Translations under genes and position numbers: made by a program | NCBI GenBank assembly: GCA_019694755.1 | Contig: JAIBBI010000001.1 | Location: 1-64,000 of the forward strand | Length of the DNA: 64,000 nt | Reading direction: 5' to 3' | Source of the DNA: Gemmataceae bacterium | Lineage (GTDB): Bacteria > Planctomycetota > Planctomycetia > Gemmatales > Gemmataceae | In this document: piece after piece, positions 8,133 through 44,102 of the stretch | Numbering within the stretch: position 1 is the first letter of the stretch | Layout: each line of letters starts with the position of its first letter | Notes under the pieces: model-generated | The model's input: the letters and a program-made list of their open reading frames with translations, nothing else | The model's database searches: none | Told to the model about the DNA's origin: nothing

Positions 8133-9494
8133 TCAGCCGAACTTGATCGTCACGTCGGTCAGAGTCGGCGGGATCGTAATGGTGTCGGTGTTGTCGTCGA
8201 AGTGGACATACAAGCTGTCCATCCCGGCCACCGGACCAACGTACAGCGTGTCGTCGCCCGTGCCCATCTCCAGGCGGAAGTCGCCGGGGTAGGCGTCGAG
8301 AATCTCGACCTCGTCCCTGCCGCCGCCCGACCGCCAGTCGACATCGCCGTAAATGCTGCCGCAGAAGGTGATGGAGTTGTCGCCGTTGCCCACGGCGAAT
8401 GAAGCGTTCGCGCCGATCTTGGTGCTGAACTGCCCGATATTATCGTTACCCGTCCCGGCCGTGAGGCGGAACGAGCCGCCGACTTCCGGATTCATGTCGT
8501 TGAAGCTGTACTGATTCGCGCCATCGCCGACGTACAGGTTGGCATTACCTCCGACGAACGAGAAGCCGGAGAAGTTGACGGAGTCCGCGCCCGCCCCGGC
8601 CGTAACAGTCAACTCGCTGTAGACCGCGGCATTTCCGCCGATCTGGAAATAGTTGTTGCCGGCCCCGAGCAGAACCGCCGCGTTGCCGAGCACCTTGGCC
8701 GAGCCGTTGATGCAGGCGATATCGTTGCCCGCGCCGGTCATGACGGTGACGCTGCCGCCGACCTCGCCGCCGACGACGACGGTGTTATTGCCCTGCCCGA
8801 GGTTGGTGATGAGGCTGCCGGTGAGCTTGCCGAAAAACCAGAGGTAGTCATTTCCGCCGGTGCCGGTAACGGTGAGATTCCCCTCCAGTATTGAGGTCAT
8901 GCCGAACGTCAGGTTGATCGGGCCGCCGTCACCCGAGTAGGTGAAGCCGCCGACGGCCCCGTTGAGCGTCATGTCATTGACGCCGGCCAGCGCGAGGGTG
9001 CCGACGATACTGGAGGTGGGAGTCAGCAGGAAGTTATCGGCTCCGCTTCCCAAGTTGATGGCAGCATTGCCGCCGACCTTGAATGATCCGCCGACTCCGA
9101 CAAACACCTGGTCCGCCCCGCCGGCCGTCGTCACGGCCAGCTTGCCTGCGACGCCGCCGTTGGCGAGGGTCACGAAGTCGCTCTTCGCGGAGGTGGCCGG
9201 GCCGGTGCCGATCGACAGGTTGCCTGGCAACGTTCCGCCGCCCAGGTCCACGGTCACAGTGTCCGAAGCAGTCCCCAGATTGACCGTAAGGTTCCCTGTG
9301 ACGTTGAACGTCCCGACGTTGACGGAGTTGGCCATCACGTTGACGGCGTTCGGCAGGGTCAGGTTGATGGACACGTTGTTAGGCGTGTTGTCGCCCGTGA
9401 GCGTGAGGTTGCCCGCGGCAAACTGCGCCACCACGGCCGGCGCGAGACGGTCTTCCAGATTCAACAATCGCAACGGTCGACGGAAACGGGACAT
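8133..9494 (-). CDS. secreted RTX-like repeat protein with N-terminal LEDR motif
   Basis: 453 residues from ATG 9494 (the open frame reaches 9530). The first residues are basic and then read LLNLEDRLAPA (LEDR at about 13-16), the same kind of opening as in the two giant beta-helix proteins and the subtilase of this window; there is no standard hydrophobic signal core. The rest consists of about ten imperfect units in which a Gly/Asp/Asn turn of the type GAGADSVNF, GTGNDNI, GTGDDTLYVG alternates with short beta-strands and recurring GGNA blocks. This resembles hemolysin-type (RTX) calcium-binding nonapeptides forming a beta-roll. It lacks the C-terminal Ig/dockerin-like module of the other three. 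Probably extracellular and calcium-stabilised; role unknown. Confidence 0.75.
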   Translation of the reverse strand: MSRFRRPLRLLNLEDRLAPAVVAQFAAGNLTLTGDNTPNNVSINLTLPNAVNVMANSVNVGTFNVTGNLTVNLGTASDTVTVDLGGGTLPGNLSIGTGPATSAKSDFVTLANGGVAGKLAVTTAGGADQVFVGVGGSFKVGGNAAINLGSGADNFLLTPTSSIVGTLALAGVNDMTLNGAVGGFTYSGDGGPINLTFGMTSILEGNLTVTGTGGNDYLWFFGKLTGSLITNLGQGNNTVVVGGEVGGSVTVMTGAGNDIACINGSAKVLGNAAVLLGAGNNYFQIGGNAAVYSELTVTAGAGADSVNFSGFSFVGGNANLYVGDGANQYSFNDMNPEVGGSFRLTAGTGNDNIGQFSTKIGANASFAVGNGDNSITFCGSIYGDVDWRSGGGRDEVEILDAYPGDFRLEMGTGDDTLYVGPVAGMDSLYVHFDDNTDTITIPPTLTDVTIKFG

Positions 9495-9644
9495 TGTGGT
9501 GACACCGGAGAGTGGCGGGCAGTCAATCATTCCCGCGCCGCCGGCGCCCTCACAAATCAGCCAGACCCCGCGGACTCACATTCGCGCGGAAGCTGTAGCA
9601 TCCGCGCAGACCGGCGCGGTTGTGACGCGACCGGAGATATCGAT

Positions 9645-15233: not shown

Positions 15234-18200
15234 ATGTCACTCCGCACACGTCGTGGTTCGCTCGCCTCCCGGAATCTCCGCTCGAAACTGTTCGTCCGCG
15301 CGCTGGAAGACCGGTCGGTCCCGGCGGCATTCGTGGTCAATGCGAGTACCGACACCAACACCGCAGACCCGATGGACCCGCTCAAGGGCGACTTGCGCTA
15401 CTGCATCGACCAGGCCAACCTCAACCCCGGCCCGGACACGATTACGTTCGACGCGAGCGTGACCTCGATCGCGATGACCAACGGAACCGTTCTTACAATT
15501 ACCGATGACCTGAAGATCACGGGCAGCGGGTCGGGGATCCTTACGCTCGACGCTCTGAACGCAACTCGTCACTTCTTGATCGACAACGCGGCTGCCGGCC
15601 CCATTCATGTCGACATTTCCGGGATGAAGCTCATCAACGGCCGAAAGACCGGCACCCTGACCACCGACCGTGGTGGATCGATCTTCATCAACGACGAGTC
15701 GGTCACTCTGAATGACATGGTGCTCCAGAACAACACAGCCGACGGCCGAGGCGGCGCACTCAACATACAGGCCGCGCCTGGCACGCTCCTCGTGACAAAC
15801 TCCAAGTTTATCAACAATTCGGCGGCCTTGGCAGGCGGTGCGATTAACCTGCCGGCCGGTTCACTGACAGTTGAGAACTGCACGATCAGCGGCAATACGG
15901 CTCAGGGTCGAGCGGGCGGCATCTACAACACCGGCGGACTTCTCGTCGTCCGGTCGTCCAGTTTCGACGCCAGTGCGGGTTCCGGAAACCGCTCCAACAC
16001 GAGTTCCGGCGGAGCAATTAATGCGATCGGCGGATCGACCACAATCATCGACACCACGATCTCCGGCAGCACTGCCGCGACCCGTGGTGGCGGTCTCTAC
16101 ACCAGCAATACCAACCTGCTCGTTGACCGCTGCCTGTTCCAGAGCAACACGTCGCTCAGCGCATCTGGTGCGTCCGGCGGTGGCGCGTGTATTGCGCCAT
16201 TTCTCAATGTCGTCAACACGACCATTCGTAACAGCACATTTACCGGCAACACGGCATTGACCGGTGGAGGTCTCCAGTTCTATCTCGCTTATGGCATTCA
16301 GCGACTTTCCAATTGCACCATCGTCGGCAACACGGCGACAAGTACCGCTGCGGGAGCCGGCGGCGGCGGTCTCGCGCGGATAGCGTTCGGCACCGGCGCG
16401 CTGTTCATGGACAGCAACATCATCGCCAACAATACCAACACAGTCGCTCCGGATTTTCAGGGCGGCGGCGCAGTGGCCGGCTCCAATTTTGCCAACAACA
16501 ACTTCATCAAGGCTTCCACCGGGCAGGGCATTCTGACCGGCACAGGAAACGTCACCTCCACGGACCCGGACCTTGGGCCGCTCGCCAACAACGGCGGGGC
16601 GACCCTGTCCTTCAAGCCGAACCCGACCAGCCCCGTCATTAACGCGGGACTCAACCCGTTCGATGCTTCCGGGAAGGATCAGACGGGCAACACCCGGACG
16701 TTCGGTAATGCAGACGTCGGTGCCGTTGAGGTCATTACGGCAGGCACGCCGACAGCGTCGGCGACACTCGCCGGCATCTACTCCACCGGTGGCACGAACT
16801 ACTCCTTCTCTGTCCTGTACCAGGGGACGGCCAACATCGACGCTTCGACGCTCGGCAACACGGACATTCGCGTGACCGGGCCGAACGGCTTTAACCAGCT
16901 TGCCACTCTCCGGTCGGTTACTGGGTCGGGTGCAACGGTGACAGCTACCTATCAGGTAACGGCCCCTGGTGGCACGTGGGACGGAAGTGACGTTGGCCAG
17001 TACTCCGTCGCGGTCGAAGCGAGCCAGGTCGCCGACGTTGGTGCGGTCTTCGTCCCTGCGGGTTCGCTCGGTAATTTTGCGGTCGACGTCGGGCGGACCT
17101 TCGTCGTTACGAGTGGCGCGGATTCCGGTGCGGGCACACTTCGGCAAGCCGTACTGGACGCGGCCACGACGCTCGCACTCGACACGATCACTTTCGATCC
17201 CCTGCTGAACGGGACGACGATCACAGTCACCACGCCGATCGCTGTCAATAATCCGGTGTCCATCAACGGCCCGGGTGCCGACCTCCTGGCCATCAGCGGC
17301 GGGGGCACCAGCCGGATATTTACAGTCAACGGGCCGTTCAAAGTCGTTGCCAACTTCAACGATCTGAAACTGATGAATGGTCGATCGACCGGCGGCGCGG
17401 CGACGGACCGCGGTGCGGCGATTCAGATCGGCGAGGAAATCGTCAATGTGAATAACGTCATCTTCCAGGGCAATACCGTCTCGGGCACTCGCGGTGGTGC
17501 GATCGCGATTCAGGGGCAGAATACAAGCGTTGGCATCCTCAACGTGTCCAATTCGACTCTTACCGGCAACTCGGCGAATACGGCCGGAGGAGCGATGTTC
17601 ATCACCAATGGTCAGGTGACGATCACCGATTCGACTCTTTCCGGCAACACGAGCGCAGGCGCGGGCGGAGCGATTTCGTTCTACGCCCCTTCCAACACCG
17701 GAGCGTTTCTGACAATTGATCGATCGACGTTGAGCGCAAACACGGCCGGCACGGGCGGCGCGATTGCCGACCAGTCGGCTACATCCACGACGGTCACGAC
17801 CAACGTCTCGGCCGTTGCTCTCAACATCCGCAACAGCACGATCTCCGGAAACACGGCCACGGCCGTCAACGGCGGTGGCGGTGTCATTCTGACCGCATTC
17901 GGCCACACGATGCGAATTCAGAACAGCACTCTCGCCTTCAATACCGCTTCCAACGCGACAGGCTCCGGTGGCGGATTGCACTGGTTCAGTTCGAATTCCT
18001 CGACGACGCCGGGCACGGTAACGATCGACTCGTCCGTCATTTCCAAAAACGTCGCGACGAATGGCCCTGAAATTCGCACCACGGCCGGATCGCTCACGGC
18101 CAACAACTCAAACATCTTCGACACCACCGGCCAGACAATTACGGAAAACAGCCCGGTTGTCGGCGATCCGTTGCTGGCGCCGCTCGCCGACAATGGCGGC

Positions 18201-20336
18201 AAGACCAAGACGCATGCATTCCTGGCCGGCAGCCCGCTCCTGGACGCCGGGGCCAACCCCTTGGGCCTGACAGTGGACCAGCGCGGATTGCCACGCGTCA
18301 GTGGCGGCCTGATCGACGTGGGTGCGTTCGAGTTGTCGCCGCCCGTCGTGGTCCTGCCGACTAATGTCACGACGACTGGCGGCTCAACTGGGACATTCTC
18401 GGTGCAGTTCTTCAGCGCGGATGGCATCGACGCAACGACCATCGATGCCGGCGACTTTACCGTTACGACTCCGGGCCTGACCACTTTGCCGGTCACTCTC
18501 GTCAGCGTTACGCCGGCCGGCAATGGTAATTTCCGAACAGCGACCTTCACTTTCACCGCCCCGGGCGGGACATGGGACGCTTCCGACACCGGCGATTACA
18601 CAGTCGCCTTCACCGGCTCCGTCTCCACGACGCTCGCCGCCGCCCTTCCGACCGGAGCTTCGGGCACGCTGAAGGCGGCATTCGGCCAGACGCTGACGGT
18701 GACCGACCTTGGCGATTCGGGCCCCGGCACCTTGCGCGACTTGCTCGCAACTGCGGCCAGCCACAGCCCGGCAGTCGACACGATTAGCTTCGGCGTTACC
18801 GGCACGATTACCCTGACGGGTGGCGAGTTGCTGATCACACGCTCGGTGGTCATCAACGGGCCGGGCGCGGGATCGGTCACCATCAACGGTAACGGCTTGG
18901 GCCGGGTCTTCAACATCGATGACAGCGACAGCTCGTCGGTGCTTCTGGTCACCATCAAGGGTGTGACGATCTCCGGCGGAAGTTCGACGGCTGACGGCGG
19001 TGGAATTTTCGTGCAAAATGAAAACCTGACGCTCGACAGCGTGGTCGTCTCGGGCAACTTTTCAGATACGGAAGGCGGCGGCGTCGCACTGGGCACGAGT
19101 GGCGTGCTCACGCTCCGCAATTCCACGCTTTCCGGCAATACGGCCAAGAGCATGGGTGGCGGTGTGTACTTCCTGAACAACGGCGACCTCACGGTCGAGG
19201 GCAGTACTGTTGTCGGCAATGTCTCCGGCAGACAGGGTGGCGGCCTCTACTTCTTCGGCACAGCCGCCGACGGCACCCTGAATATCCGCAATTCGACGAT
19301 TTCCGGCAACAAATCTGCGTGGGACGGCGGTGGCGTCATCGCCCGGTCGTTCACCGGCAACCTGCTGATCGAGAACAGCACGATCGCGTATAACACCGCG
19401 TCCAGCGGCCGGGGTGGCGGCGTAACGACTTTCAACACCGGAACCGCGGGCACGGTTACTCTGCTCAGTTCCATTGTTTCGAACAATGTCAATTCGTTCG
19501 CGCCTGAACTGGGCGCGCCTGCGAAGATCAATTTCAGCCTGATCGGCAACTCAACTGGACTCGCCTTTAATACCGGCGGTTCCAACCGGCTCGATGTTGA
19601 TCCGCTGCTGCTCCCGCTCGCCAACAACGGCGGCACGACGCAGACGCACCGGCTGCCGGCCAACAGCCCGGCCGTCAACTTCGGTTCCAACACAGGTGGC
19701 CTGACGACTGACCAGCGCGGCGGCCCCCGCACCGTCGGCATCACCGATATCGGGGCTTACGAGACCAACCCGGTTTCCGTGACCTCGGTTGTGATCAACA
19801 ACGGGGCGACTCAGCGGTCCCGCGTGACCACCCTGCGGGTCAACCTCAGCACCGCCACCACGTTCGCAAACCTCTCCAACGCGTTTACGTTGACCCGCGT
19901 CAGCGACAGTGCGACTGTGACGCTGAATGCCGTGCTCGACGGATCGGGCACTTTCGTAACACTCACCTTCACCGGTGGGGCTGTCGATGGGGCCCCGGGG
20001 AACCTGTCACTTCAGGACGGCCGGTACACGCTGACGATGCTCGGCGCTGAAGTGACCAACGTCGATGGCTTTGACGGGAACGGCGACGGCATTGCCGGCG
20101 GCGACTTCACGTTCGGCTCGACACCCTATGTGAGCGGAGCCCAGCCTGCGACTGGCATCTTCCGCCTGTTCGGCGACGCGTCGGGCAACGGGAAGGTCGA
20201 ATCCGACGACTTCCTTGCGTTCCGTCTGGCGTTCCTGTCGAGCAGCGACACGTTCGATTTCAACGGCAACGGTTCAGTCGACAGCTCGACCGACCTTCTC
20301 CAGTTCCGTCTCAATTTCCTGAAGCAGATCCTGTGA
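15234..20336 (+). CDS. giant three-module beta-helix surface protein
   Basis: 1700 residues. The N-terminus is basic and carries VRALEDRSVPA (LEDR at 24-27) with no hydrophobic signal core. Three right-handed parallel beta-helix modules follow (about 32-500, 615-1030, 1148-1510). Each begins with a CSLREA-like strip (GDLRYCIDQAN, GAGTLRQAVLDAA, GPGTLRDLLATAA), contains many NSTISGNTA-type coils and ends in a choice-of-anchor-Q-like block (PLANNGG...TDQRG). Beta-sandwich linkers (about 505-610, 1036-1140; VTAPGGTWDGSD) separate the modules. The end has an Ig-like domain (about 1515-1625) and a double EF-hand/dockerin-like unit (1644-1700; DASGNGKVESDDF, DFNGNGSVD). Probably a cell-surface or matrix protein. 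It shares architecture and nearly the same C-terminus with 37338-44102. Confidence 0.85.
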   Translation: MSLRTRRGSLASRNLRSKLFVRALEDRSVPAAFVVNASTDTNTADPMDPLKGDLRYCIDQANLNPGPDTITFDASVTSIAMTNGTVLTITDDLKITGSGSGILTLDALNATRHFLIDNAAAGPIHVDISGMKLINGRKTGTLTTDRGGSIFINDESVTLNDMVLQNNTADGRGGALNIQAAPGTLLVTNSKFINNSAALAGGAINLPAGSLTVENCTISGNTAQGRAGGIYNTGGLLVVRSSSFDASAGSGNRSNTSSGGAINAIGGSTTIIDTTISGSTAATRGGGLYTSNTNLLVDRCLFQSNTSLSASGASGGGACIAPFLNVVNTTIRNSTFTGNTALTGGGLQFYLAYGIQRLSNCTIVGNTATSTAAGAGGGGLARIAFGTGALFMDSNIIANNTNTVAPDFQGGGAVAGSNFANNNFIKASTGQGILTGTGNVTSTDPDLGPLANNGGATLSFKPNPTSPVINAGLNPFDASGKDQTGNTRTFGNADVGAVEVITAGTPTASATLAGIYSTGGTNYSFSVLYQGTANIDASTLGNTDIRVTGPNGFNQLATLRSVTGSGATVTATYQVTAPGGTWDGSDVGQYSVAVEASQVADVGAVFVPAGSLGNFAVDVGRTFVVTSGADSGAGTLRQAVLDAATTLALDTITFDPLLNGTTITVTTPIAVNNPVSINGPGADLLAISGGGTSRIFTVNGPFKVVANFNDLKLMNGRSTGGAATDRGAAIQIGEEIVNVNNVIFQGNTVSGTRGGAIAIQGQNTSVGILNVSNSTLTGNSANTAGGAMFITNGQVTITDSTLSGNTSAGAGGAISFYAPSNTGAFLTIDRSTLSANTAGTGGAIADQSATSTTVTTNVSAVALNIRNSTISGNTATAVNGGGGVILTAFGHTMRIQNSTLAFNTASNATGSGGGLHWFSSNSSTTPGTVTIDSSVISKNVATNGPEIRTTAGSLTANNSNIFDTTGQTITENSPVVGDPLLAPLADNGGKTKTHAFLAGSPLLDAGANPLGLTVDQRGLPRVSGGLIDVGAFELSPPVVVLPTNVTTTGGSTGTFSVQFFSADGIDATTIDAGDFTVTTPGLTTLPVTLVSVTPAGNGNFRTATFTFTAPGGTWDASDTGDYTVAFTGSVSTTLAAALPTGASGTLKAAFGQTLTVTDLGDSGPGTLRDLLATAASHSPAVDTISFGVTGTITLTGGELLITRSVVINGPGAGSVTINGNGLGRVFNIDDSDSSSVLLVTIKGVTISGGSSTADGGGIFVQNENLTLDSVVVSGNFSDTEGGGVALGTSGVLTLRNSTLSGNTAKSMGGGVYFLNNGDLTVEGSTVVGNVSGRQGGGLYFFGTAADGTLNIRNSTISGNKSAWDGGGVIARSFTGNLLIENSTIAYNTASSGRGGGVTTFNTGTAGTVTLLSSIVSNNVNSFAPELGAPAKINFSLIGNSTGLAFNTGGSNRLDVDPLLLPLANNGGTTQTHRLPANSPAVNFGSNTGGLTTDQRGGPRTVGITDIGAYETNPVSVTSVVINNGATQRSRVTTLRVNLSTATTFANLSNAFTLTRVSDSATVTLNAVLDGSGTFVTLTFTGGAVDGAPGNLSLQDGRYTLTMLGAEVTNVDGFDGNGDGIAGGDFTFGSTPYVSGAQPATGIFRLFGDASGNGKVESDDFLAFRLAFLSSSDTFDFNGNGSVDSSTDLLQFRLNFLKQIL

Positions 20337-25104: not shown

Positions 25105-28100
25105 ATGCGTTGGAAACGACTCGACCGTTTGGAAGATCGCATTGCCCCGGCCGCCATCGTCCGGCCATACCAGCCATTCACCGATTCGGAGGTTCTGGCC
25201 TACGTCACCGGGCGCGACCTCCTTGGCGGCAGCCCGCTCATCACGGAACCCGGTGGCGTGCTTGTGCGGATTCCACTCGGTCACGGCGCAGATCCCCAAG
25301 TCGTCGTCGACCAACTAGCCGCGAGGGCAGATGTCGCGTGGGCGTCCCCCAATTACGTCTATGCCGTCGGGCCGGGGGAGTTCATCCCCAACGATCCGCT
25401 GTTTTCCCAGCAGTATCATCTGAGCAAGATTCAGTCCCCGGCCGCCTGGGATGTGACCACCGGTTCTTCGAATGTTATCGTCGCTGTTGCCGACGACGGA
25501 TTGGCCATCTCACACCCCGATATCGCACCCAACGTCTGGTCCAACACCAAAGAAACGCCCGGCAACGGCATCGACGATGACGCCAACGGCTTCATCGATG
25601 ATGTCAACGGCTGGGACTTCGAGGGCGACGATAACAACGTCAATCCCGAGAACGGCGACACACACGGGACGCACGTCGCGGGCATCATCGGTGCCCGCAC
25701 CAACAATGCAGCCGGTGTGGCGGGCGTAGCCGGAGGTGGCGTCAGGATCATGCCTATCCGATGGGTCGGCAACGGCGTCGGCACCGGCACCTCGGCCGAC
25801 TGCGTTTCCGCCCTCACATATGCTGCCGACAACGGCGCCAAGATCGTCAACATGAGCCATACGTTTGATGGCTTCGTCGGCGATGCCGCAGTAACGACTG
25901 CCGTCAACTACGCTTACGGTAAGGGGTTACTGCTGATCAACTCCGCCGGGAACAATGACCAGGCCGATCCTTCCCGCGGTGCGTTCACTCAGATACTGTT
26001 CACGGCGGCCACGGACTCCAACGACCAACGCACGGCGTTCAGCAACTACGGAAAGTACATCGACGTATCCGCGCCCGGCATGAACGTGCTGTCCACCACG
26101 ATCGATAGCGGTGTGTTCAGCTATCGCATGATCAGCGGGACCAGCATGGCCTCCCCAAATGCGGCCGGCGTCGCCGCCTTGATCTGGTCCGCCCATCCTG
26201 CCTGGACTCGCGATCAGGTGGCCGCGCAACTCATCGGCTCGGCCGACCGAATCGATGAACTGAACCCGGGCTTCGAGGGCCAGTTGGGAAACGGCCGGGT
26301 GAATGCGGCCCGAGGTGTCTCGAGTACGATTCAGCCGCCACGGGTGATTCTTGAGGGAGGCCTCCCAGCTGAGGGGGGCTTTACAACTACCCGAAACTTC
26401 ACGATCGGCTTTGACACACCCCTCCGATTCGATCCGGCCACGGTCAGCGCGTCGAGCTTTGAACTGCGGGGTGACGGCGCTGACAACACGTTTGGGACGG
26501 CCGACGATACTCTGAAGACGCTCGTGATCAACGGTGGCGCGACCTACCGCATGGGAACGGACGGGTTCGCGATCACCTTTACCGGCAACCTCGCATACGA
26601 CCGTTACCGGTTCACTGCGAAGGCTGCGGTTTTGAAGGATCCTTTCGGACAGTCGCTCGATGGCGACTCCGATGGCGCGGCCGGAGGCGACTTCACCCGC
26701 ACGTTTCGCGTGTCCGTCAGCTCGATTCAGGGTCGGGTCTACGAGGACCTGGACAACAGCCTGCTCTTTGGCACGACATTCGACGCCCCGCTACCGGGCT
26801 GGACTGCTTTCATTGATTCCAACGGTAATGGCCAACTCGATAACGGCGAGCCGGTTGCCGTAACTGACGGAGTGGGAACGTACTCCTTCTTAGATCTGTC
26901 ACCGGGGACATACACTGTCCGACGCGTGACCTCGGCAGGGTGGACTGATAACCGCCCTTCCTCGGGTTTCTACTCAGTCACGCTCGCAAGCTCTACGTCG
27001 ACGAGTACCGCTAATCACTTCGGGCAGCAAAGGACCAACGCGGCTTACGGCAGGACGCACGAGGACCTCGATGGAAGCGGTGCCCGCGAATCGGCCGACC
27101 CCAATCTTGCGGGCGTCACTGTGTTTCTCGACTCCAACAACAACGGAGTCGCGGACACCACGCAGGCAATTCGAAGTTCGGTCGACGTGCCCAAGTCGCT
27201 GACGTTCGGAACGGTCACATCCGTGCTGACAGTCTCGGGCGTTTCCGGGCCGATCACCGATCTGGATGTGAACCTCTCCATTCAGCATACGTCAATTGTC
27301 GACCTGTCTCTCACGCTTATTGCTCCCGGCGGACGGCGCGTATTGCTTATGGCCGGGACGGGTGGCGAGACGGACAACCTCTCCGGGACAGTATTCGACG
27401 ACGAGGCGACCCTATCCGTCTCATCGGGCGTAGCCCCATTTTCGGGACGATTCCGCCCGGCTTCCCGGCTCGTCGATTTCGACGGGATGGATCCGAACGG
27501 CACCTGGGCTCTGGAGGTAGTCGACGATTCCGGGATCGGGCAGGCCGGAAGCCTGACCAGCTGGTCCCTCACGATTGGAGGCGGAGAGTCGATCACCAAC
27601 AGCGACTCGAACGGGCTGATACTGCTTACGGCCGTGCCAAATGGAACTGGTATCGTCCGGGCGCAGCCGCTGAGCGGCTGGCGACCGGCCAGCCCGGCAT
27701 CGGGTGCGGCGACCGTTTCTGTCGGGCCGGGGCCCGCGCTTGCCATTCATTTTGGGCAATGGCGTCAGAATGCGGCCTACGGGAGATTCTTCAACGATGC
27801 CAATGGAAACGCGGCGGCAGACTCCGGCGAGACGGCCTTGTCGAACTGGCGGGCATACGCCGACCGGAATGGTAACGGTGCTTTCGACGCCCCGGTCGTG
27901 AATAAGGCCTCGACCAACGTTCCCCGCACAATCGCCAACATGGCGACCACGACATCGTCCATGACTGTTGCCGGCATCCCCGACCCGATTACCGACATCG
28001 ATGTCAACCTCTCGATCAACCATGCTCACACTGTCGACATCATCGTTACGTTAATCGCGCCGGACGGTCGGCGAGTTCTACTCTGGGATCGCGTTGGTAC

Positions 28101-29013
28101 CGACTTCGACGACTTCACAGGTACGATTCTGGATGACGAGGCTTCCACCGCGATTGATGCCGGCACGGCGCCATATACCGGGAGATTCCGTCCTCAGGAA
28201 CCACTGAGCCTGTTGGATGGCAGCATCGCAAATGGGGTCTGGCGACTCGAAGTCATCGATACGTTTGCTTCCTACTCGGGGACAATCGACAGTTGGTCCC
28301 TGGATTTTGAGACAGCTGAGCCGTCGGCGATCTCGGCCTCTCACGGCGGCTACGCCATCGCCAATCTGACAGGTCCAACGACCATCCGCAGAGTCTTGCA
28401 GCCTGGCTGGGGCGGAACGCAACCGGCAGCCGACTCTTATCCGCTTTCCTTCACTGCCGGGGACACCGTGACGGGTCTTGCGTTCGGCCAACGGCAGGTC
28501 CCTCCGCGGGTCGCATCGATTATCATCAACGACGGCTCGGCCCAGCGGTCTCGGGTAACTTCCCTCACGATCGCATTCGATCGTGCGGTGACATTCTCAA
28601 ACGGCCTCACCCAGGCATTTCAGTTGACGCGGACCGGCCCCGGATCGCCGACGGGCGCGATCAGTTTTATCGCCGACTCGGCCGCCAGCACTTCGAGCCG
28701 AACTGTCGTTACCCTCAGCTTTCCGCCTCTGTCGGACGGGAACTATCAACTTTCAGTGATCGCGATCCAAGTCCTCGAGAATGGAATCGCCCTTGATGGT
28801 GACGGGAATGGCTCGGCCGGAGGGAACGCAAGCTTCACCTTCCACCGGCTATTCGGCGATAGTGACGGAGACCGGACGATCACCGCGGCGGACTTTCTCG
28901 CGTTTCGGCTCATGTTTCTGTCGAACAACCCCGTCTTCGACTTCGACGGCGACGGCCAGGTCGGGCCCGGAGACTTTCTCCAATTCCGGCTTCGTTTCCT
29001 CACGACCATTTGA
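25105..29013 (+). CDS. surface subtilisin-like (S8) protease with P-domains and dockerin-like end
   Basis: 1302 residues from ATG 25105 (an upstream TTG at 25090 is less likely). Opens RWKRLDRLEDRIAPA (LEDR at 9-12), then a propeptide (about 25-88). The S8 domain (about 100-410) has Asp130 in VAVADDG, His187 in THGTHVAG, Asn283 in NSAGNN and Ser347 in SGTSMASP. An Ig-like unit (about 412-535) and three SdrD/Cna-like units follow (from about 540, 645 and 890). The second and third are each interrupted by a proprotein-convertase P-domain (about 690-825, 932-1068). The end is an Ig-like domain (about 1132-1245) and a double EF-hand/dockerin-like unit (DSDGDRTITAADF, DFDGDGQVGPGDF). Probably a surface-anchored protease. 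Confidence 0.93.
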   Translation: MRWKRLDRLEDRIAPAAIVRPYQPFTDSEVLAYVTGRDLLGGSPLITEPGGVLVRIPLGHGADPQVVVDQLAARADVAWASPNYVYAVGPGEFIPNDPLFSQQYHLSKIQSPAAWDVTTGSSNVIVAVADDGLAISHPDIAPNVWSNTKETPGNGIDDDANGFIDDVNGWDFEGDDNNVNPENGDTHGTHVAGIIGARTNNAAGVAGVAGGGVRIMPIRWVGNGVGTGTSADCVSALTYAADNGAKIVNMSHTFDGFVGDAAVTTAVNYAYGKGLLLINSAGNNDQADPSRGAFTQILFTAATDSNDQRTAFSNYGKYIDVSAPGMNVLSTTIDSGVFSYRMISGTSMASPNAAGVAALIWSAHPAWTRDQVAAQLIGSADRIDELNPGFEGQLGNGRVNAARGVSSTIQPPRVILEGGLPAEGGFTTTRNFTIGFDTPLRFDPATVSASSFELRGDGADNTFGTADDTLKTLVINGGATYRMGTDGFAITFTGNLAYDRYRFTAKAAVLKDPFGQSLDGDSDGAAGGDFTRTFRVSVSSIQGRVYEDLDNSLLFGTTFDAPLPGWTAFIDSNGNGQLDNGEPVAVTDGVGTYSFLDLSPGTYTVRRVTSAGWTDNRPSSGFYSVTLASSTSTSTANHFGQQRTNAAYGRTHEDLDGSGARESADPNLAGVTVFLDSNNNGVADTTQAIRSSVDVPKSLTFGTVTSVLTVSGVSGPITDLDVNLSIQHTSIVDLSLTLIAPGGRRVLLMAGTGGETDNLSGTVFDDEATLSVSSGVAPFSGRFRPASRLVDFDGMDPNGTWALEVVDDSGIGQAGSLTSWSLTIGGGESITNSDSNGLILLTAVPNGTGIVRAQPLSGWRPASPASGAATVSVGPGPALAIHFGQWRQNAAYGRFFNDANGNAAADSGETALSNWRAYADRNGNGAFDAPVVNKASTNVPRTIANMATTTSSMTVAGIPDPITDIDVNLSINHAHTVDIIVTLIAPDGRRVLLWDRVGTDFDDFTGTILDDEASTAIDAGTAPYTGRFRPQEPLSLLDGSIANGVWRLEVIDTFASYSGTIDSWSLDFETAEPSAISASHGGYAIANLTGPTTIRRVLQPGWGGTQPAADSYPLSFTAGDTVTGLAFGQRQVPPRVASIIINDGSAQRSRVTSLTIAFDRAVTFSNGLTQAFQLTRTGPGSPTGAISFIADSAASTSSRTVVTLSFPPLSDGNYQLSVIAIQVLENGIALDGDGNGSAGGNASFTFHRLFGDSDGDRTITAADFLAFRLMFLSNNPVFDFDGDGQVGPGDFLQFRLRFLTTI

Positions 29014-37337: not shown

Positions 37338-40300
37338 TCAAACCACCTGCTTCAGGAAATTCAAACGGAACGAGAGGAAGTCCGGCGAAGCAACCTGTCC
37401 GTTACCGTCGAAGTCAAACGCGTCGTTCGATGACAGGAATGCCAGGCGGAAGGCCAGGAAGTCATCGGACTCGACCTTGCCGTTGCCGGAAGCGTCGCCG
37501 AACAAACGGAAGATTCCCGTGGCCGGCGTCGTTCCGTTAACGTACGGGGTCGAGTTGTAATTGTTCCCCGTCAGCACGCCTGAGTTGCCATCGACGCCCG
37601 CCCCGCCGAATTCGGCAGGGACGATCGTCAACGTATACCGACCGTCCTGAATCGAGTAATTGCCGGGCGCTCCGTCGACCAGACCGCCGGTGAAGGTGAT
37701 CGTCGCAAACAAGCCCGAACCGTCCAAAACGGTGTTGAGCGTCACCGAACCGGCCGACGGCGTCACGCGGTTAAGCGTGAACGCATTGGCCGGGTTGGCG
37801 ATTGTCACGGCCGAGTCGAAGTTCACCTTGAGCGTGGTCACCCGCGACCGCTGCGCCGCCCCGTTGTTGATGACAATAGAAGTAACCTTGGCGGCCGACG
37901 CGGCCTGAGCCTCGTATGCCCCGATGTCGGTGCCATCTCCACCCGGCGCATTGGTAATCAGTGGGTTGTCATAGGTTCGGTTTTGGCCTCGCTGATCGAA
38001 GGCGACGGCGAGGGAGTTCAAGCCGCCGTCAAGTGCCGGACTCCCAGCCTTGAGCGACTGGGTCATCGTCGGTCCGCCGTTGTCCGCCAGCGGGTTCAAG
38101 AGCGGGTCAACGCCGACCTTGAGTTCCGTTCCCGTGGTCAAGGTCATACCTGCACCGTTGGCGACGATGGTGTAGTCGGCGGTGACGGCGACAGCGTCGC
38201 TGATGTCAGGTCCGCCACCCGGTGCGATGTTACTCGCGAAAATCGAGTTGGAGATGGTGGCGAATCCGGCGATCTGTCGCAGGCCACCACCAAAGCCACC
38301 ACCGTTGATGACGCGGTTGTTAGTGACGGTCGTGAAATGCATGTTGAGCGTGCCGCCATTATTGGAGATGGCACCGCCGCCCGCGCTGCCGGTGTTACCC
38401 GTCAATGTCGAGTTAATAATGTTTACGGTGCCGATGCCCGGGATTCGTATTGCGCCTCCCGATCCACCCGAATAGTTGTTGAAGAAGAGGCTATCGGTGA
38501 AATTGGCCACCGTGGCGGCGTTGTTGTAATTGAATACGCCGCCGTTGGTGCCCGAGTAGTTGTTGATGAACGCGATCCGGCTAAAGTTCAGCGTCTCGTC
38601 TTGGCTGAATATAGAACCGCCGATATCGCCATTCGCGTTGGTTCCCGTGATCTTTCCATCAGCCATCGTGAGGTCAGTGACCGTCACTGTCGCCTGGCCG
38701 GGCGAGTAAATCAGGAAGTGACGATTGCGGCCGCCGGTGGAAATGGTCAGATTCTTGGTGCCTGTGCCCTGAATGGCAACGGAGTCGGCGATGTTGACTT
38801 CGCCGGTGTTCAACGTGATTGTCTGGGCCGTACCAAACACGCCCGGGCTGAATGAGATCGTATCAACCGCGCCCGATGGATCCTGAATCTGGTTGCTGTC
38901 GAGAATGGCTTGACGAAGACTTCCAGCGCCGGCATTGTTGGTGGTCGTCACCACGTAATTGCGAGCCAGTTGCACCTTAAACGCGCCGAGGTTGGCGGCC
39001 GCGACGGATTGCAACGTCGAGTCCGTCACTTTGCCCGCCTGAAGGGCGATTGAATACACGCCGCCGTCCGCATTGTCCCATGTGCCGCCCGGAGCGCTGA
39101 AAGTATACGTGGCTTCTGTGCCACCCGCGACAGGAGCCGTGACGACCCCGGCGAAAGCTAGCGTTCCGGCAGGGCCGGTGACAACGAGATCGTCGGAATC
39201 GATGCTCCCGACGTTCAGGTCGGTGTCGTAGTAGGTGACCTTTACTTGGACGTTCGTTCCACCCACGGTCGTGATATCCGCGGTCGGAGTGAGGATGCCA
39301 ACGGGAGTCGTTCCGTCGGATTCGACAGCCCCGATATCAACAGCAGCGCCGATGGGGCGGGTGACGCCCCTCTGATCGATCGTTGGAGCGATGTATGCAC
39401 CCGTCGTTGCATTACGGAGAACGCTGCCGGGGGCCGGAAGGTGAGTCTGGTTAGGCCCGCCGTTGCTTGCCAGCGGCCCGAGCAGGATGACGCCGCCGTT
39501 AAGCGAAAACCCGGTGAGGGCGCCAGCAGTGAAGCCAACCGAATCAGAGACCGCGCTGTCGGTGAGGTTGACGGCGCCGGGGTTGCCGCTGTCATCGATA
39601 CGTATGTCGTTGCCGATACCGCCATTGAGGGCCAGGTTATTGGCGACGACCGATCCATTCAGATCGACATTCGTGGTTCCAAGTGGCGAGCGGAAAATGC
39701 CCCCACCGCCGAGAACAACGCTGCCCGAGTGATTCCGGGCTACGTTGTTCGCCACGGTCGAGTTGTTGAGCGTAAGCGTTCCGTTCCGATATCGGATACC
39801 GCCACCCGATTCTCCGGCTATGTTGCTGGAAACAGTGGAGTTCGTGAGAGTCGCGTTGGTAAGCGTGCCGAAGTAAAGGCCGCCTCCGTACGCCGTGGCA
39901 GCCGCGCCTGTCGAGTTGCCGGACACCGTGCAACTGTCGAGCGTGACGGTGCTGCTGGTGACGGCGTAAACGCCGCCGCCGCCGTCAATAGCCGAGTTGC
40001 CAGAGATAGTACACCGGATCATCGAGATGTCGGCAGTAGTGGCAAAAAGGAATCCACCATCGCTGAGAGGTCCGACCGCGCTGTTGCCGCTGGCGGTGCC
40101 GTCAGTCCAGGTGAACTTACCTCCCGACAATGCGATCGCACCACCGTCGCCGCTACCAGTGTTGTTCAGGATGTTCACGTTGGTGAACACGAGATTCTCG
40201 CCAACGCTGAGCACCGCCGCGCCGTTGTCATCCGTATTCCATGTCCGGGCGTCGCGGAGGGTCACACCGGTGACGTTGAAAGTCATGGTGTTGGCGGAAT

Positions 40301-43300
40301 CGTTGTCATTGACAAAGAAGATTCGATTCGCCCCGTTGCCACTGATGGCGACGTTGCCGGGACCGTTCACTGTGACTCCGGACGGGTTGCTTACGACAAT
40401 CTGCCCTGTGGTCAGCGTGATTGTCTGCGGCGTGGCAAACACCGCAGGATCGAACGTGATTGTGGTGGCGCCGGCGACCTTGTTGGCGTCGCTGAACACC
40501 TGCCGAAGGCTGCCAACGCCGCTGTCGGCCGTGGTCGTGACCTTTAGCGCGGGCGGCACGAAGATCGTAAACGTACCGAAGACGGTTTGCGGTACGGCTG
40601 CCGCGCCAGTATCGGTGGCCTTTCCGCCGAGCAGCGTCACGGTATAGTCGCCGTTTTCACCAACGTCCCAGAAGCCGCCCGGCGCATTGACCTTGTAGAC
40701 CTGGTCGTACTTGGTCGTGCCCGAGCCGACTCCGACCAACGAGGCCAACTGGCTGAAACCGCCAGGACCAGTCACGAGGATTTCATCACCGTCGATTGAG
40801 CTGGCCTGGATTCCAGTCTCATCGTAGTAGCTGACAGTGAATTGATAGTCAGGATCAGGTGCAGAAATCGTCCCAAACGTGGAGACAGTGGCGACCGGTG
40901 TGCCGAGTGCGAACTCGAGTGCACCCATGTCCGTTGTTCCGACGACACGCGGGTAGCCCGTACCGCGCTGGTCAAATGTCAAGCCGGTGAAGTATCCCTT
41001 GTCGCGGGCGACGTTGGGCGTGCCAAGTGTGTAGTCGGGGATGGTGGCGATACCGAGTCGTCCGCCACCGAAGTCGTATAGCGGGGTCGTCAATATCGGG
41101 TTGGGAGCACCAATGATCGAACTGCCCGGCGTACCGAGTTCCGTCACGACGGATGCAGCGGAGTTCGCAACTGCGCTGTTCAGGAAATTCACAACGCCGT
41201 TCAAGTCAGGCGCAGTCGGAAACGGTTGACCGTCGGTGTTGTTGGCGATAAGGCTGCTGACGACAGTGACCACGCCGTTCGGCCCTGTACGTACGATGCC
41301 GGCAGTTTTTCCGGAGGCCGCGGTGTTGCCCACGATGGTCGAACTGGTGATTGTCGCGAATCCACCGAAGCCACTTGAAGATGCACCACCCGTAATCAAT
41401 ACACCTGCCCCGCTGGCACTCGCATTGGTCGTACGGTTATTAGCTATTGTCGAGTTGACGATGGAAAAAGTACGAGAAACGCCATATGTCATGACACCGC
41501 CGCCGCCGGATGATCCCGCTGCGAGATTGCCAGAGATTTGACAGTTCTCGATCGCGAAACCGGCATTGAGGCCGTAGATCGCGCCGCCTTTGCCGCCCGC
41601 CGTGTTTCCAGTCAGAACACAGTCCTTGAACATCGCCAAGTTGTTGAGCGAATTACTCGCCCCTGTACTGTACGCACCGCCGTGCGCGTTGGTCGGCGTC
41701 GGGATTACCAAGCCCGCAGTGTTTTTCGACAATTCGGAGTTGAAGACGAGGACCTTGCTGCCCTGAGCCCCTGACCCGGTCGCAATTGTCGCTATTGCTC
41801 CTCCGTGAGTAGTGGACGTGTTGTTGGTGATTCGCATGTCCCGGATGGTGAGATATTCGGTACTGATTTGGATCGCACCGCCTGAACCGCTGGAGGGGGC
41901 ACCATCGCGAAGCGTCATGCCCGACATGACAATGTTGCTGTACTTGGTCGTGCTACCATCGCTGATGAGGAAGAGCCGATCCGTACCCGCCTGTCGGACC
42001 GTAAGCAGGTCTCGGCCGGGGCCTTCGATCACCAGATTGTCGGTGATAGCGAGGGCCGCCGAAAGCGTAATGGTCTGCGCCGACGCGAAGACAGTGGGAT
42101 CGAAACGGATCAGATCCGCTAGACCCACTGTACCCGCCTGTGCATCGGTGACGGCTTTGGCGAGACTGCCGGCCCCAGAGGCCGCGGTGTTGGTCACTGT
42201 GAAAATGTCGCCAACTTGCACGCTGAGGGTGCCGATGGTCGCCCCAGCAATCTTTGTACCACCAGAATTCTCTACGTTATTGGCCAGTGCGATCGTGAAA
42301 TTGCCATTGTCGGACTTGTCCCACGACCCGCCGGGCGGCGTAATCGTGTAAGTCACGGTAATCGTCTTGGCGTCGACGCCCGACGAGGCCGAGAAACTGG
42401 AGACGGTCGCCCCGCCGGTCACAGTGATATTCGACGTGCCGATTGAAGCCACTTTGACATTGACCGCGTCGTAATAGGTCAAGGTCACACTGTAACTGGT
42501 CGCGCCGGGTCGGTCTACAAGGGCCAATGGAGCGGCTAGGACGGCAACGGGTTCGGTTCCGCTGTTCTCGGCCGCTCCGACGTCAGGAGCCGACCCAGCG
42601 GTGCGGGGGTTACCCCGCTGATCGGTCGTGATCGTCGTGGCCGACCCGACGTTTGACAAAATTCCAAACGGGGCCGGCAGCATTGTAAGGGTCGGGCCAC
42701 CGTTGTTCGAGAGTATTCCGAGCGGGATAAACGAACCGGGCGTTGCTACCAGGCCGGTCCCGGCCGTGATCACCAGACCATTGGAATTGCCAACCACGGA
42801 GTTGTTGACAGTGACGCCGGTGCCGACGGGCAGAATGATGTCCGGGTAGGCCAGTGATGTATTGTTTGCGACGATTGTGTTTTCGATCGTGACGTTCGTC
42901 GTCCCCGCGTTAACTCCGGACCGGTTGATTCCGCCACCGTTGATTTCCGCGATGTTGTTGGCGATAGTTGAAAAGGAGATGGTCACATTGCCCGCGTAGC
43001 TGGCGCCGAGCGAGAACCCGCCGCCGTATTCTCCTGCGCTGTTTCCAGCGATCGTTGTGTTTTCGACTCGAACTGTGCCGGCCGCGCTATTCGCCCCATT
43101 GAACCGGAGCCCACCACCATCGGAGCCGAGGCCGGTCGCACGATTGTTGGCAACCAGACAGCCAGAAATGACGACGGTCCCGGGGTTGTCGAAACTGTAA
43201 AGTGCGCCACCTATGGTCGCGGCGGTATTACCAGTAATCGACGTATTCGAGATGCTCGCGTTCACAGGGGCGCCCGATCCGCCGGTCAAGCGGACACCGG

Positions 43301-44102
43301 CACCGGAAGTATTTGTTCGGTTGTTTGAGATCGTGGAATTGCCGAGCGTAATCGACGCCGAGCGATATGCATAGATGCCGCCGCCCGTAGCTCCGGCGGC
43401 GTTGCCAGTTACGAGAGAGTTGGTGATCGTACCAGTATTGTTCGTCGTGAATCGGACACCACCGGTGTTGCCCGCGGCAGAGTTGTTCGTGACCGACGAA
43501 TTCGTGATCTTGAGAACGGTCAGTGCGGACGACTCGTAACAGGCGATACCGCCGCCAGCCCCGGTGGTCATCGTATTTGCGTTGATCACACAATTGGTGA
43601 TGGTGACGTCCTCGGAGCCTACGCCGATTCCCGCACCACGATCGGAGACAGTTGTAGTCGTGACATTGCCGCCGGTAAAAGTAAGACCGTTGATCGTGTA
43701 GGTGTCGGCCGTGCCCGTATTGCCGTTGTCGATCTTCAGGACGCGCGAATTTGCCGTCGTCTGCTTGATGGTCAGAAGGCTTGCGCCCGGACCGTTAATC
43801 GTCACGCCTCCCAGGCCGGCGACTAGTTGACCGTTGGTTAGTGTGATGGTGGTTGCCGCGCCGAACGTCGTCGTGTCGAAATTGATCGTGTGGGGGACGG
43901 CTCCGTCGATGGCGGCAGCGTTGAGGGCATCACGGAGGCTGACGAGGCCGACACCAATGCCGTCATTCTCGTCGACGGCAGTATTGACCGTGAAAACCGT
44001 CGGGACGACTTTTTCTTCGAGGCTGAGCAGCCGGAGGCGGGGGTTGCGGATCTTGTGGGTACGGGTGGGACGAGCGAAAAGACGACGCATCCAACGCGAC
44101 AT
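37338..44102 (-). CDS. giant four-module beta-helix surface protein
   Basis: 2254 residues from ATG 44102. The basic N-terminus carries RLLSLEEKVVPT (28-34), a variant of the LEDRxxPA motif, with no signal core. Four beta-helix modules each open with a CSLREA-like strip (LVSLRDALNAA, GAGSLAKAVTDAQ, GVGSLRQVFSDAN, GAGSLRQAILDSN), contain many NSTIANN/SGNTA coils and end in a choice-of-anchor-Q-like block. Three beta-sandwich linkers join the modules (YSVTLTYYDAVNVKVASI, YQFTVSYYDETGIQASSI, VQVKVTYYDTDLNVGSI). The end is an Ig-like domain (INNGAAQRSRVTTLKVNF) and a double EF-hand/dockerin-like unit (DASGNGKVESDDFLAFR, DFDGNGQVASPDFLSFR). It is a paralogue of 15234-20336 with one more module. 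Its terminator is shared with the nuclease gene. Confidence 0.85.
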   Translation of the reverse strand: MSRWMRRLFARPTRTHKIRNPRLRLLSLEEKVVPTVFTVNTAVDENDGIGVGLVSLRDALNAAAIDGAVPHTINFDTTTFGAATTITLTNGQLVAGLGGVTINGPGASLLTIKQTTANSRVLKIDNGNTGTADTYTINGLTFTGGNVTTTTVSDRGAGIGVGSEDVTITNCVINANTMTTGAGGGIACYESSALTVLKITNSSVTNNSAAGNTGGVRFTTNNTGTITNSLVTGNAAGATGGGIYAYRSASITLGNSTISNNRTNTSGAGVRLTGGSGAPVNASISNTSITGNTAATIGGALYSFDNPGTVVISGCLVANNRATGLGSDGGGLRFNGANSAAGTVRVENTTIAGNSAGEYGGGFSLGASYAGNVTISFSTIANNIAEINGGGINRSGVNAGTTNVTIENTIVANNTSLAYPDIILPVGTGVTVNNSVVGNSNGLVITAGTGLVATPGSFIPLGILSNNGGPTLTMLPAPFGILSNVGSATTITTDQRGNPRTAGSAPDVGAAENSGTEPVAVLAAPLALVDRPGATSYSVTLTYYDAVNVKVASIGTSNITVTGGATVSSFSASSGVDAKTITVTYTITPPGGSWDKSDNGNFTIALANNVENSGGTKIAGATIGTLSVQVGDIFTVTNTAASGAGSLAKAVTDAQAGTVGLADLIRFDPTVFASAQTITLSAALAITDNLVIEGPGRDLLTVRQAGTDRLFLISDGSTTKYSNIVMSGMTLRDGAPSSGSGGAIQISTEYLTIRDMRITNNTSTTHGGAIATIATGSGAQGSKVLVFNSELSKNTAGLVIPTPTNAHGGAYSTGASNSLNNLAMFKDCVLTGNTAGGKGGAIYGLNAGFAIENCQISGNLAAGSSGGGGVMTYGVSRTFSIVNSTIANNRTTNASASGAGVLITGGASSSGFGGFATITSSTIVGNTAASGKTAGIVRTGPNGVVTVVSSLIANNTDGQPFPTAPDLNGVVNFLNSAVANSAASVVTELGTPGSSIIGAPNPILTTPLYDFGGGRLGIATIPDYTLGTPNVARDKGYFTGLTFDQRGTGYPRVVGTTDMGALEFALGTPVATVSTFGTISAPDPDYQFTVSYYDETGIQASSIDGDEILVTGPGGFSQLASLVGVGSGTTKYDQVYKVNAPGGFWDVGENGDYTVTLLGGKATDTGAAAVPQTVFGTFTIFVPPALKVTTTADSGVGSLRQVFSDANKVAGATTITFDPAVFATPQTITLTTGQIVVSNPSGVTVNGPGNVAISGNGANRIFFVNDNDSANTMTFNVTGVTLRDARTWNTDDNGAAVLSVGENLVFTNVNILNNTGSGDGGAIALSGGKFTWTDGTASGNSAVGPLSDGGFLFATTADISMIRCTISGNSAIDGGGGVYAVTSSTVTLDSCTVSGNSTGAAATAYGGGLYFGTLTNATLTNSTVSSNIAGESGGGIRYRNGTLTLNNSTVANNVARNHSGSVVLGGGGIFRSPLGTTNVDLNGSVVANNLALNGGIGNDIRIDDSGNPGAVNLTDSAVSDSVGFTAGALTGFSLNGGVILLGPLASNGGPNQTHLPAPGSVLRNATTGAYIAPTIDQRGVTRPIGAAVDIGAVESDGTTPVGILTPTADITTVGGTNVQVKVTYYDTDLNVGSIDSDDLVVTGPAGTLAFAGVVTAPVAGGTEATYTFSAPGGTWDNADGGVYSIALQAGKVTDSTLQSVAAANLGAFKVQLARNYVVTTTNNAGAGSLRQAILDSNQIQDPSGAVDTISFSPGVFGTAQTITLNTGEVNIADSVAIQGTGTKNLTISTGGRNRHFLIYSPGQATVTVTDLTMADGKITGTNANGDIGGSIFSQDETLNFSRIAFINNYSGTNGGVFNYNNAATVANFTDSLFFNNYSGGSGGAIRIPGIGTVNIINSTLTGNTGSAGGGAISNNGGTLNMHFTTVTNNRVINGGGFGGGLRQIAGFATISNSIFASNIAPGGGPDISDAVAVTADYTIVANGAGMTLTTGTELKVGVDPLLNPLADNGGPTMTQSLKAGSPALDGGLNSLAVAFDQRGQNRTYDNPLITNAPGGDGTDIGAYEAQAASAAKVTSIVINNGAAQRSRVTTLKVNFDSAVTIANPANAFTLNRVTPSAGSVTLNTVLDGSGLFATITFTGGLVDGAPGNYSIQDGRYTLTIVPAEFGGAGVDGNSGVLTGNNYNSTPYVNGTTPATGIFRLFGDASGNGKVESDDFLAFRLAFLSSNDAFDFDGNGQVASPDFLSFRLNFLKQVV

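Follow-up and report, generated by a model that had tools for sequence, protein, structure and literature searches.

Why do large proteins with different cores, encoded within one stretch of a planctomycete genome, end in the same C-terminal tail, and what would such a tail be docked to? The stretch in question, here called the window, comprises 64,000 nucleotides of a Gemmataceae bacterium (GCA_019694755.1, contig JAIBBI010000001.1, positions 1-64,000, forward strand) and belongs to a draft assembly of 5.64 Mb in 335 contigs, estimated to be 97% complete. A preliminary description of the window had recognized a shared tail in three proteins and expected a common anchoring or assembly route. 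This expectation agrees with what was found across the genome, the unit being strictly C-terminal, attached to many unrelated extracellular cores and accompanied by no detectable cohesin in the genome. We consider it reasonably probable that the tail is a dockerin-like, cohesin-independent C-terminal surface-docking tag.

Translation and alignment confirmed the tail in all three window proteins. It consists of an immunoglobulin (Ig)-like unit with the motif I-N-[ND]-G-x-x-Q-R-S-R-V-T and, behind it, a module 55-57 residues long, in which two calcium-loop motifs are each succeeded by an F-L-x-F-R-L-x-F-L helix. Hence, the unit of ~57 residues with two calcium-loop-like strips and FLxFRL-type helices, as initially described, can be seen in every one of the three. 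In comparison with the tail of protein 1, the other two share 72% and 48% identity. Two details had to be corrected: the protein at 37338-44102 indeed ends alike, but its gene lies on the minus strand with the tail as a whole at 37341-37886 (-), and the supposed three unrelated cores reduce to two types, choice-of-anchor-Q units in proteins 1 and 3 and a subtilase in protein 2. The N-terminal LExRxxP motif paired with the tail had been missed and is added here; it is present in 3/3 window proteins, in one of them as LEEKVVP. The features are as follows.

15234..20336, plus strand: protein 1, 1700 residues, three choice-of-anchor-Q beta-helix units and then the C-terminal tail
15303..15326, plus strand: N-terminal LEDRSVPA of protein 1, read from the sequence, an LExRxxP surface-export motif (motif described in PMC8567305)
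19785..20162, plus strand: Ig-like (Big_5-like) tail unit of protein 1 with the QRSRV motif, from the tail comparison
20163..20333, plus strand: dockerin-like module of protein 1, 57 residues, ending at the stop
20175-20210, plus strand: calcium loop 1 of protein 1
20211-20237, plus strand: helix FLAFRLAFL of protein 1
20256-20294, plus strand: calcium loop 2 of protein 1, one residue longer than the family norm
20295-20321, plus strand: helix LLQFRLNFL of protein 1
25105..29013, plus strand: protein 2, 1302 residues, subtilase, P-domains, SdrD_B-like units and the C-terminal tail
25129..25152, plus strand: N-terminal LEDRIAPA motif of protein 2, read from the sequence
28510..28845, plus strand: Ig-like unit of protein 2 (INDGSAQRSRVTSL), a Big_5 match
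28846..29010, plus strand: dockerin-like module of protein 2, period 27, from the tail comparison
37338..44102, minus strand: protein 3, 2254 residues, four choice-of-anchor-Q beta-helix units and the C-terminal tail
43998..44021, minus strand: N-terminal LEEKVVPT of protein 3, read from the sequence, a variant of LExRxxP
37509..37886, minus strand: Ig-like unit of protein 3, from the tail comparison
37341..37508, minus strand: dockerin-like module of protein 3, period 27, used as the first sequence in AlphaFold2 model ma1abf75f2728

The tail is not limited to these three proteins. A search of the genome with a 180-residue tail as query, in which all candidates were scored, gave 123 matches with E-values down to 1e-75, and this is the count used here; large in-genome searches with some of the other models scored candidates only in part. 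Reading of 117 match places yielded 106 distinct open reading frames (ORFs) reaching a stop, corresponding to about 105 tail proteins and in total to 107,643 residues, i.e., 323 kb or about 5.7% of the genome. In 106/106 of these ORFs, only 0-5 residues separate the tail from the stop, and the cargo is of extracellular type, whereas a mostly internal position or an occurrence in cytoplasmic proteins would have spoken against the anchoring idea. One protein (L062) carries an extra tail copy immediately preceding the terminal one.

Among the copies, 4-fold synonymous sites are 44% identical, where saturation would give 38%; codon positions 1 and 2, in comparison, reach identities of 68% and 74%, respectively. 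The combination of near-saturated silent sites and conserved coding positions indicates that the copies are old and have been under long, sustained purifying selection, with no recent copying. Together with the tail identities of 72% and 48% and the very low E-values, it also excludes a chance resemblance. The same numbers bear on the notion of a passive spread, according to which the tail would have hitch-hiked at gene 3' ends by recombination or insertion elements and would have little function. That gene pairs converging tail to tail, as well as fragments of decayed IS21-like sequence, lie 3' of some copies would fit this notion; considering, however, the conserved codon positions at nearly saturated 4-fold sites, the preservation of the stop position and of both hands in essentially all copies, and the presence of IS-like fragments beside a minority of copies only, we regard it as very improbable. 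An origin as a mobile cassette was likewise rejected, as the DNA shared 3' of a minority of copies proved to belong either to the convergent gene opposite or to decayed sequence resembling IS21 istA, and the copies are too diverged for a recent spread.

The surroundings of the stops are recorded in their own right. Convergent tail genes whose 3' ends face each other at a distance of a few hundred bases were seen at C44:26046(+)/26958(-), C160:18550(+)/19379(-), C35:34325(+)/34970(-), and C36:1705(+)/2231(-) of the same genome (G000). Decayed IS21 istA-like fragments lie just 3' of the stop of the tail genes L027, L030, L037, L038, L054, L057, L078, and L097, a placement that looks as if insertions had often landed or recombined after tail-gene stops.

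In terms of cargo, 71 tail-free bodies match 44 Pfam families, including beta-helix, S8, GH18 (chitinase), GH43, GH44, M60, reprolysin, lysyl oxidase, Calx-beta, and Sortilin/BNR. Choice-of-anchor Q is found in 22 of the tail-free bodies; this NCBI name refers to the domain being trailed by varied anchors. At the opposite end, LExRxxP is found near the N-terminus, following an Arg-rich stretch, in 61/69 tail ORFs whose 5' end is closed; one more has LExKxxP. The window proteins gave no listed match to Pfam PF07595 itself at E<=1. A LExRxxL/P motif at the N-terminus of planctomycete surface proteins was reportedly noted by Studholme in 2004. Further, none of the 61 tail proteins tested possesses a Sec-like hydrophobic core (for the best 12-residue stretch, the median hydropathy was 0.44 and no value exceeded 1.8, as against 2.84 for a Sec control). 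A planctomycete surface signal has been described for R. baltica, in the reported form LExRxLLA, and as LxLExLExRxxP for Tuwongella immobilis, where 20 of 52 motif proteins were detected, 8 of these exclusively in the sodium dodecyl sulfate fraction (PMC8567305).

The strictly terminal position, the universal occurrence on diverse exported cargo and the absence of a Sec-like N-terminus would also be compatible with the tail serving as a C-terminal signal for secretion or processing that, like the type IX secretion system C-terminal domain, PEP-CTERM or type I secretion signals, is recognized by an export or sorting apparatus and maybe cleaved. The distribution of the N-terminal motif argues against it. 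A genome-wide motif search delivered 130 good places, 77 of them on tail ORFs; out of 40 non-tail places read, 28 have a complete 3' end and no tail, and 12 run off the contig. In three relatives, 20/20 LExRxxP proteins read are tail-free, in contrast to this genome (Fisher p 2e-10). Export by the LExRxxP route therefore appears not to need the tail. As, in addition, the tail is followed neither by a hydrophobic segment nor by a basic end or a sortase-like motif, and two full calcium-loop hands exceed the needs of a peptide signal, we judge this explanation improbable.

Among the tail-less LExRxxP proteins, a nine-member paralogous family of 440-500 residues with RTX-like repeats was observed (window 8133-9530 (-) and L198, L199, L207, L208, L209, L211, L221, and L233). 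Others, with FG-GAP-like ends, repeatedly close with F(x)GGVFVG directly or shortly before the stop, both here (L212, L213, L215, L217, L218, and L235) and in relatives (L254, L261, L262, L263, and L268). This ending may be another C-terminal signature or may only represent the final blade of a propeller.

The dockerin-like character of the module is apparent from its anatomy. Both loops retain the calcium-ligand positions 1, 3, 5, 9, and 12 and are each followed by a helix, with D1 in 100%, D/N3 in about 90-98%, D/N/S5 in about 98%, and D12 in 99/93% of hands 1/2. The most conserved residues outside the loops are the same in both hands, i.e., Leu14, Phe16, Arg17, Leu18, Phe20, and Leu21. Especially Arg17 (100/96% in hands 1/2) and Leu18 (89/89%) stand out, giving symmetric recognition residues in nearly all copies. 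In cellulosomal dockerins, cohesin is recognized through positions 10, 11, 17, 18, and 22, and similarity of the hands accompanies dual binding (PMC6780208); the 60% identity between hands 1 and 2 within one protein is as expected for dual binding.

Congruently, Pfam Dockerin_1 (PF00404, gathering cut-off 22.9 bits) matches 34/34 members of a diverse family sample, and Big_5 matches the Ig-like unit in 8/34. Within the genome, Dockerin_1 gave 58 matches (60 scored), more than 40 of them above the gathering cut-off and up to about 36 bits for genuine tails. The window copies stay below it (13.9 and 16.3 bits; the third copy not listed). The deviation lies in the linker: the hand-to-hand period is 27 in 95/102 scored copies instead of about 32-34, and solved dockerins, although among the best PDB profile matches, have 5-7 more residues between the loops. 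On these sequence features the module is a divergent short-linker type I dockerin, failing the linker length and the cognate cohesin of that family. The unit had previously been taken as related to, but separate from, type I dockerins. The resemblance holds; a separate kind it is not, since many of the genome's copies pass the Dockerin_1 cut-off and a close analogue exists in the GC-type dockerin. In an AlphaFold2 model computed from 46 rows, the expected helices span 140-151 and 167-181, while a run from three sequences alone was poor, with a predicted local distance difference test score (pLDDT) of 51. For the Ig-like unit, Foldseek indicated a weak resemblance to S-layer Ig-like domains (SbsC, Sap).

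If the module is a dockerin, the obvious candidate for a partner is a cohesin. No Pfam cohesin (PF00963) was detected in the genome at E<=1, and a profile of nine cohesins from relatives reached at best E=0.6, in a frame with a stop. Consequently, neither a cognate cohesin nor the cohesin scaffold characteristic of a cellulosome or planctosome was detected alongside the tails, so that the cohesin-like partner the preliminary description had suggested looking for is undetectable in this genome; cohesins do occur in 8/95 genomes of the family. In three of these relatives (G395, G481, and G482) they share a polypeptide with an Ig-like+dockerin tail; G432, the fourth, has a cohesin match close by on the same contig. 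The ancestral setting may therefore have been of cohesin-dockerin type. The proteins of the first three (L178, L179, and L180) are large single chains with cohesins, an internal dockerin-like stretch after the cohesin and the C-terminal Ig-like+dockerin tail, and by their domain order proteins of this type are potentially self-complementary and polymer-forming. Two further kinds of candidates were rejected: window neighbor genes do not recur beside other tails within the flanks examined, and tail-less LExRxxP proteins, considered as repeat-bearing scaffolds, have no internal repeats by blastp.

A classical cohesin-dockerin assembly, with a scaffold too divergent for the models or located in an unassembled part of the genome, would account for the dockerin-like module and for the arrangement in the four relatives, and a planctosome has been proposed for freshwater Planctomycetes (PMC6461901). 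Besides the empty cohesin searches and the short linker, a second group of genomes disagrees with it. GC-type dockerins (NF041540) occur in at least 150 copies per genome in metagenome-assembled genomes of Phycisphaeraceae/Phycisphaerae, another class, with a period of 27 in 100/100 distinct copies, Gln17 in 98-100%, Asn18 in 95-96%, and an end in or near Gly-Cys; Pfam cohesin was found in none of 4/4 such genomes. We thus hold the classical assembly to be unlikely, even though it ranks first among the alternatives. Three of the Phycisphaeraceae-type genomes (G002, G034, and G095) are small, 3.3-3.6 Mb, and without cohesin; as each encodes at least 150 C-terminal dockerins of the GC type, a single tag reaches a very high density in them.

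The comparison of both groups also concerns the option that tails assemble with each other or merely cap beta-rich proteins, no separate receptor being involved. The strong internal two-fold symmetry with its hydrophobic helices, the lack of a receptor found so far and the frequent position after long beta-helices agree with this option. Enzymes such as GH18, GH44, M60, and S8, by general knowledge of these families, should however need no cap, and residues 17-18 are fixed on all cargo but differ between the two lineages, which fits a partner-specific code. We give this option slightly less credence than the secretion signal.

Extension of the search toward related taxa showed a pronounced lineage restriction. 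Out of 102 genomes of the order, 14 possess the tail at E<=1e-10, all except the genome studied here with 1-3 copies, making it the only one of the 102 with more than three. The same number, 14, was obtained for 392 genomes of the phylum, and a tail-profile search of GTDB 220 returned no named relatives with the tail. Likewise, Dockerin_1 gave 0-5 matches in each of 94 relatives compared with the 58 reported above. The tails of relatives have the Ig-like unit in common, with a generally longer linker and variable residues 17-18.

Taken together, a surface-docking tag fits best because of the strict terminal position, the cargo diversity, the LExRxxP pairing, the fixed contact positions, the old selection and the lineage restriction. 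In the mechanism proposed, the Ig-like spacer would hold the short-linker module with its two F-hands, each of the near-identical hands offering a contact strip of Leu14, Arg17, Leu18, and Leu21. About 105 proteins would be exported via the planctomycete LExRxxP route, without an evident Sec signal, and subsequently be gathered on one common partner, no recognizable cohesin, on the cell surface or within the extracellular matrix. The tag could have originated from the rare longer-linker Ig-like+dockerin tail of which relatives have 1-3 copies; the lineage studied here would have shortened the linker, fixed the contact code and spread the tag across most of a large secretome. Calcium binding, a single receptor, cargo at the cell surface and the order of the evolutionary steps are elements that we infer.

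Several points weigh against this proposal. No receptor was found among cohesin models, neighbor genes and repeat-bearing LExRxxP proteins of the genome, although its gene could be missing from an assembly as fragmented as this one (335 contigs, 97% complete). The AlphaFold2 model is of moderate quality (mean pLDDT 69, dockerin part 70-83); it contains the two helices of the EF-hand-like fold that had been anticipated, but gave no significant fold-search match, Foldseek returning nothing at E<=0.001 and nothing at all for the dockerin part. Furthermore, the Phe/Leu conservation of the helices could partly reflect fold packing instead of an interface.

If the docking-tag reading is true, about 5.7% of one genome's DNA codes for proteins with the same tag pair, and the receptor for cohesin-less dockerins becomes a concrete, searchable target. 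It would further tie a defined C-terminal module to the question of how LExRxxP proteins arrive at the surface and are retained there, and would supply a rule for predicting planctomycete surface proteins as well as new orthogonal docking tags.

Two observations stand apart from this subject. At 54339-58064 (-) of the window, a single ORF of 1241 residues fuses a zinc carboxypeptidase (M14) domain with a complete dipeptidyl peptidase IV/S9 peptidase. Contig C78 of the assembly (L240) differs from all other parts of the genome in that it encodes a GC-type-like dockerin ending in CA, together with a Sec-signal protein whose end is PEP-CTERM-like; it is probably a contaminant.

Among known systems, the GC-type dockerins are similar in being C-terminal two-F-hand modules of period 27 with F-L-x-F-x-x-x-F helices, present in many copies on varied proteins without a Pfam cohesin. 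They differ from the window tails in a Cys at both ends, Gln17-Asn18 and Thr9-Ile10-Phe11 loops, in the visible Sec-like N-termini of some members, and in that no conserved Ig-like unit was seen ahead of the dockerin. Accordingly, the window proteins score 12.5, 16.2, and 15.0 bits against NF041540, below the 29-bit cut-off, and the tails share the period of 27 but end in Val/Ile without flanking Cys, lacking the leading Cys and the terminal Gly-Cys. It is conceivable, if somewhat short of an even chance, that period-27 dockerins are general cohesin-free surface-sorting tags that arose at least twice in Planctomycetota (with Arg17-Leu18 here and Gln17-Asn18 in Phycisphaeraceae), each read by its own receptor displaying more than 100 proteins. 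The independence of the two expansions is suggested by their absence in other sampled families, not by a tree.

In the open-access literature on Gemmata or Phycisphaer* with dockerin, we found nothing on such tags; the sole planctomycete precedent was the planctosome, a hypothetical cohesin/dockerin assembly in freshwater Planctomycetes (Andrei et al. 2019, PMC6461901). It resembles the present case in that a non-cellulosomal assembly of Planctomycetes is based on dockerins and has proteases among its cargo (PMC6461901), whereas its model is built on cohesins and few proteins, as opposed to about 105 tails and no cohesin. Type I dockerins (PF00404) share the two symmetric calcium-loop and helix hands and the C-terminal position, but have a linker 5-7 residues longer and a cohesin to bind, none of which was detected in the genome, and position 18 is the hydrophobic Leu here as compared with the Arg reported for Clostridium dockerins (PMC6780208). 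The LExRxxL/P motif proteins have the N-terminal Arg-rich stretch and LExRxxP on large surface proteins in common with ours, but the literature consulted deals with the N-terminal signal alone, and PMC8567305 says nothing of a C-terminal tag or of its pairing with the motif. Finally, PEP-CTERM, LPXTG and comparable systems likewise place a short C-terminal homology region on many unrelated exported proteins of one genome (PMC1569441); in contrast to their terminal membrane helix and basic end, and to the PEP motif of PEP-CTERM, the tails described here are folded calcium-loop modules rather than peptide signals, closing with FRLRFLQSV-like amphipathic helices at the stop.

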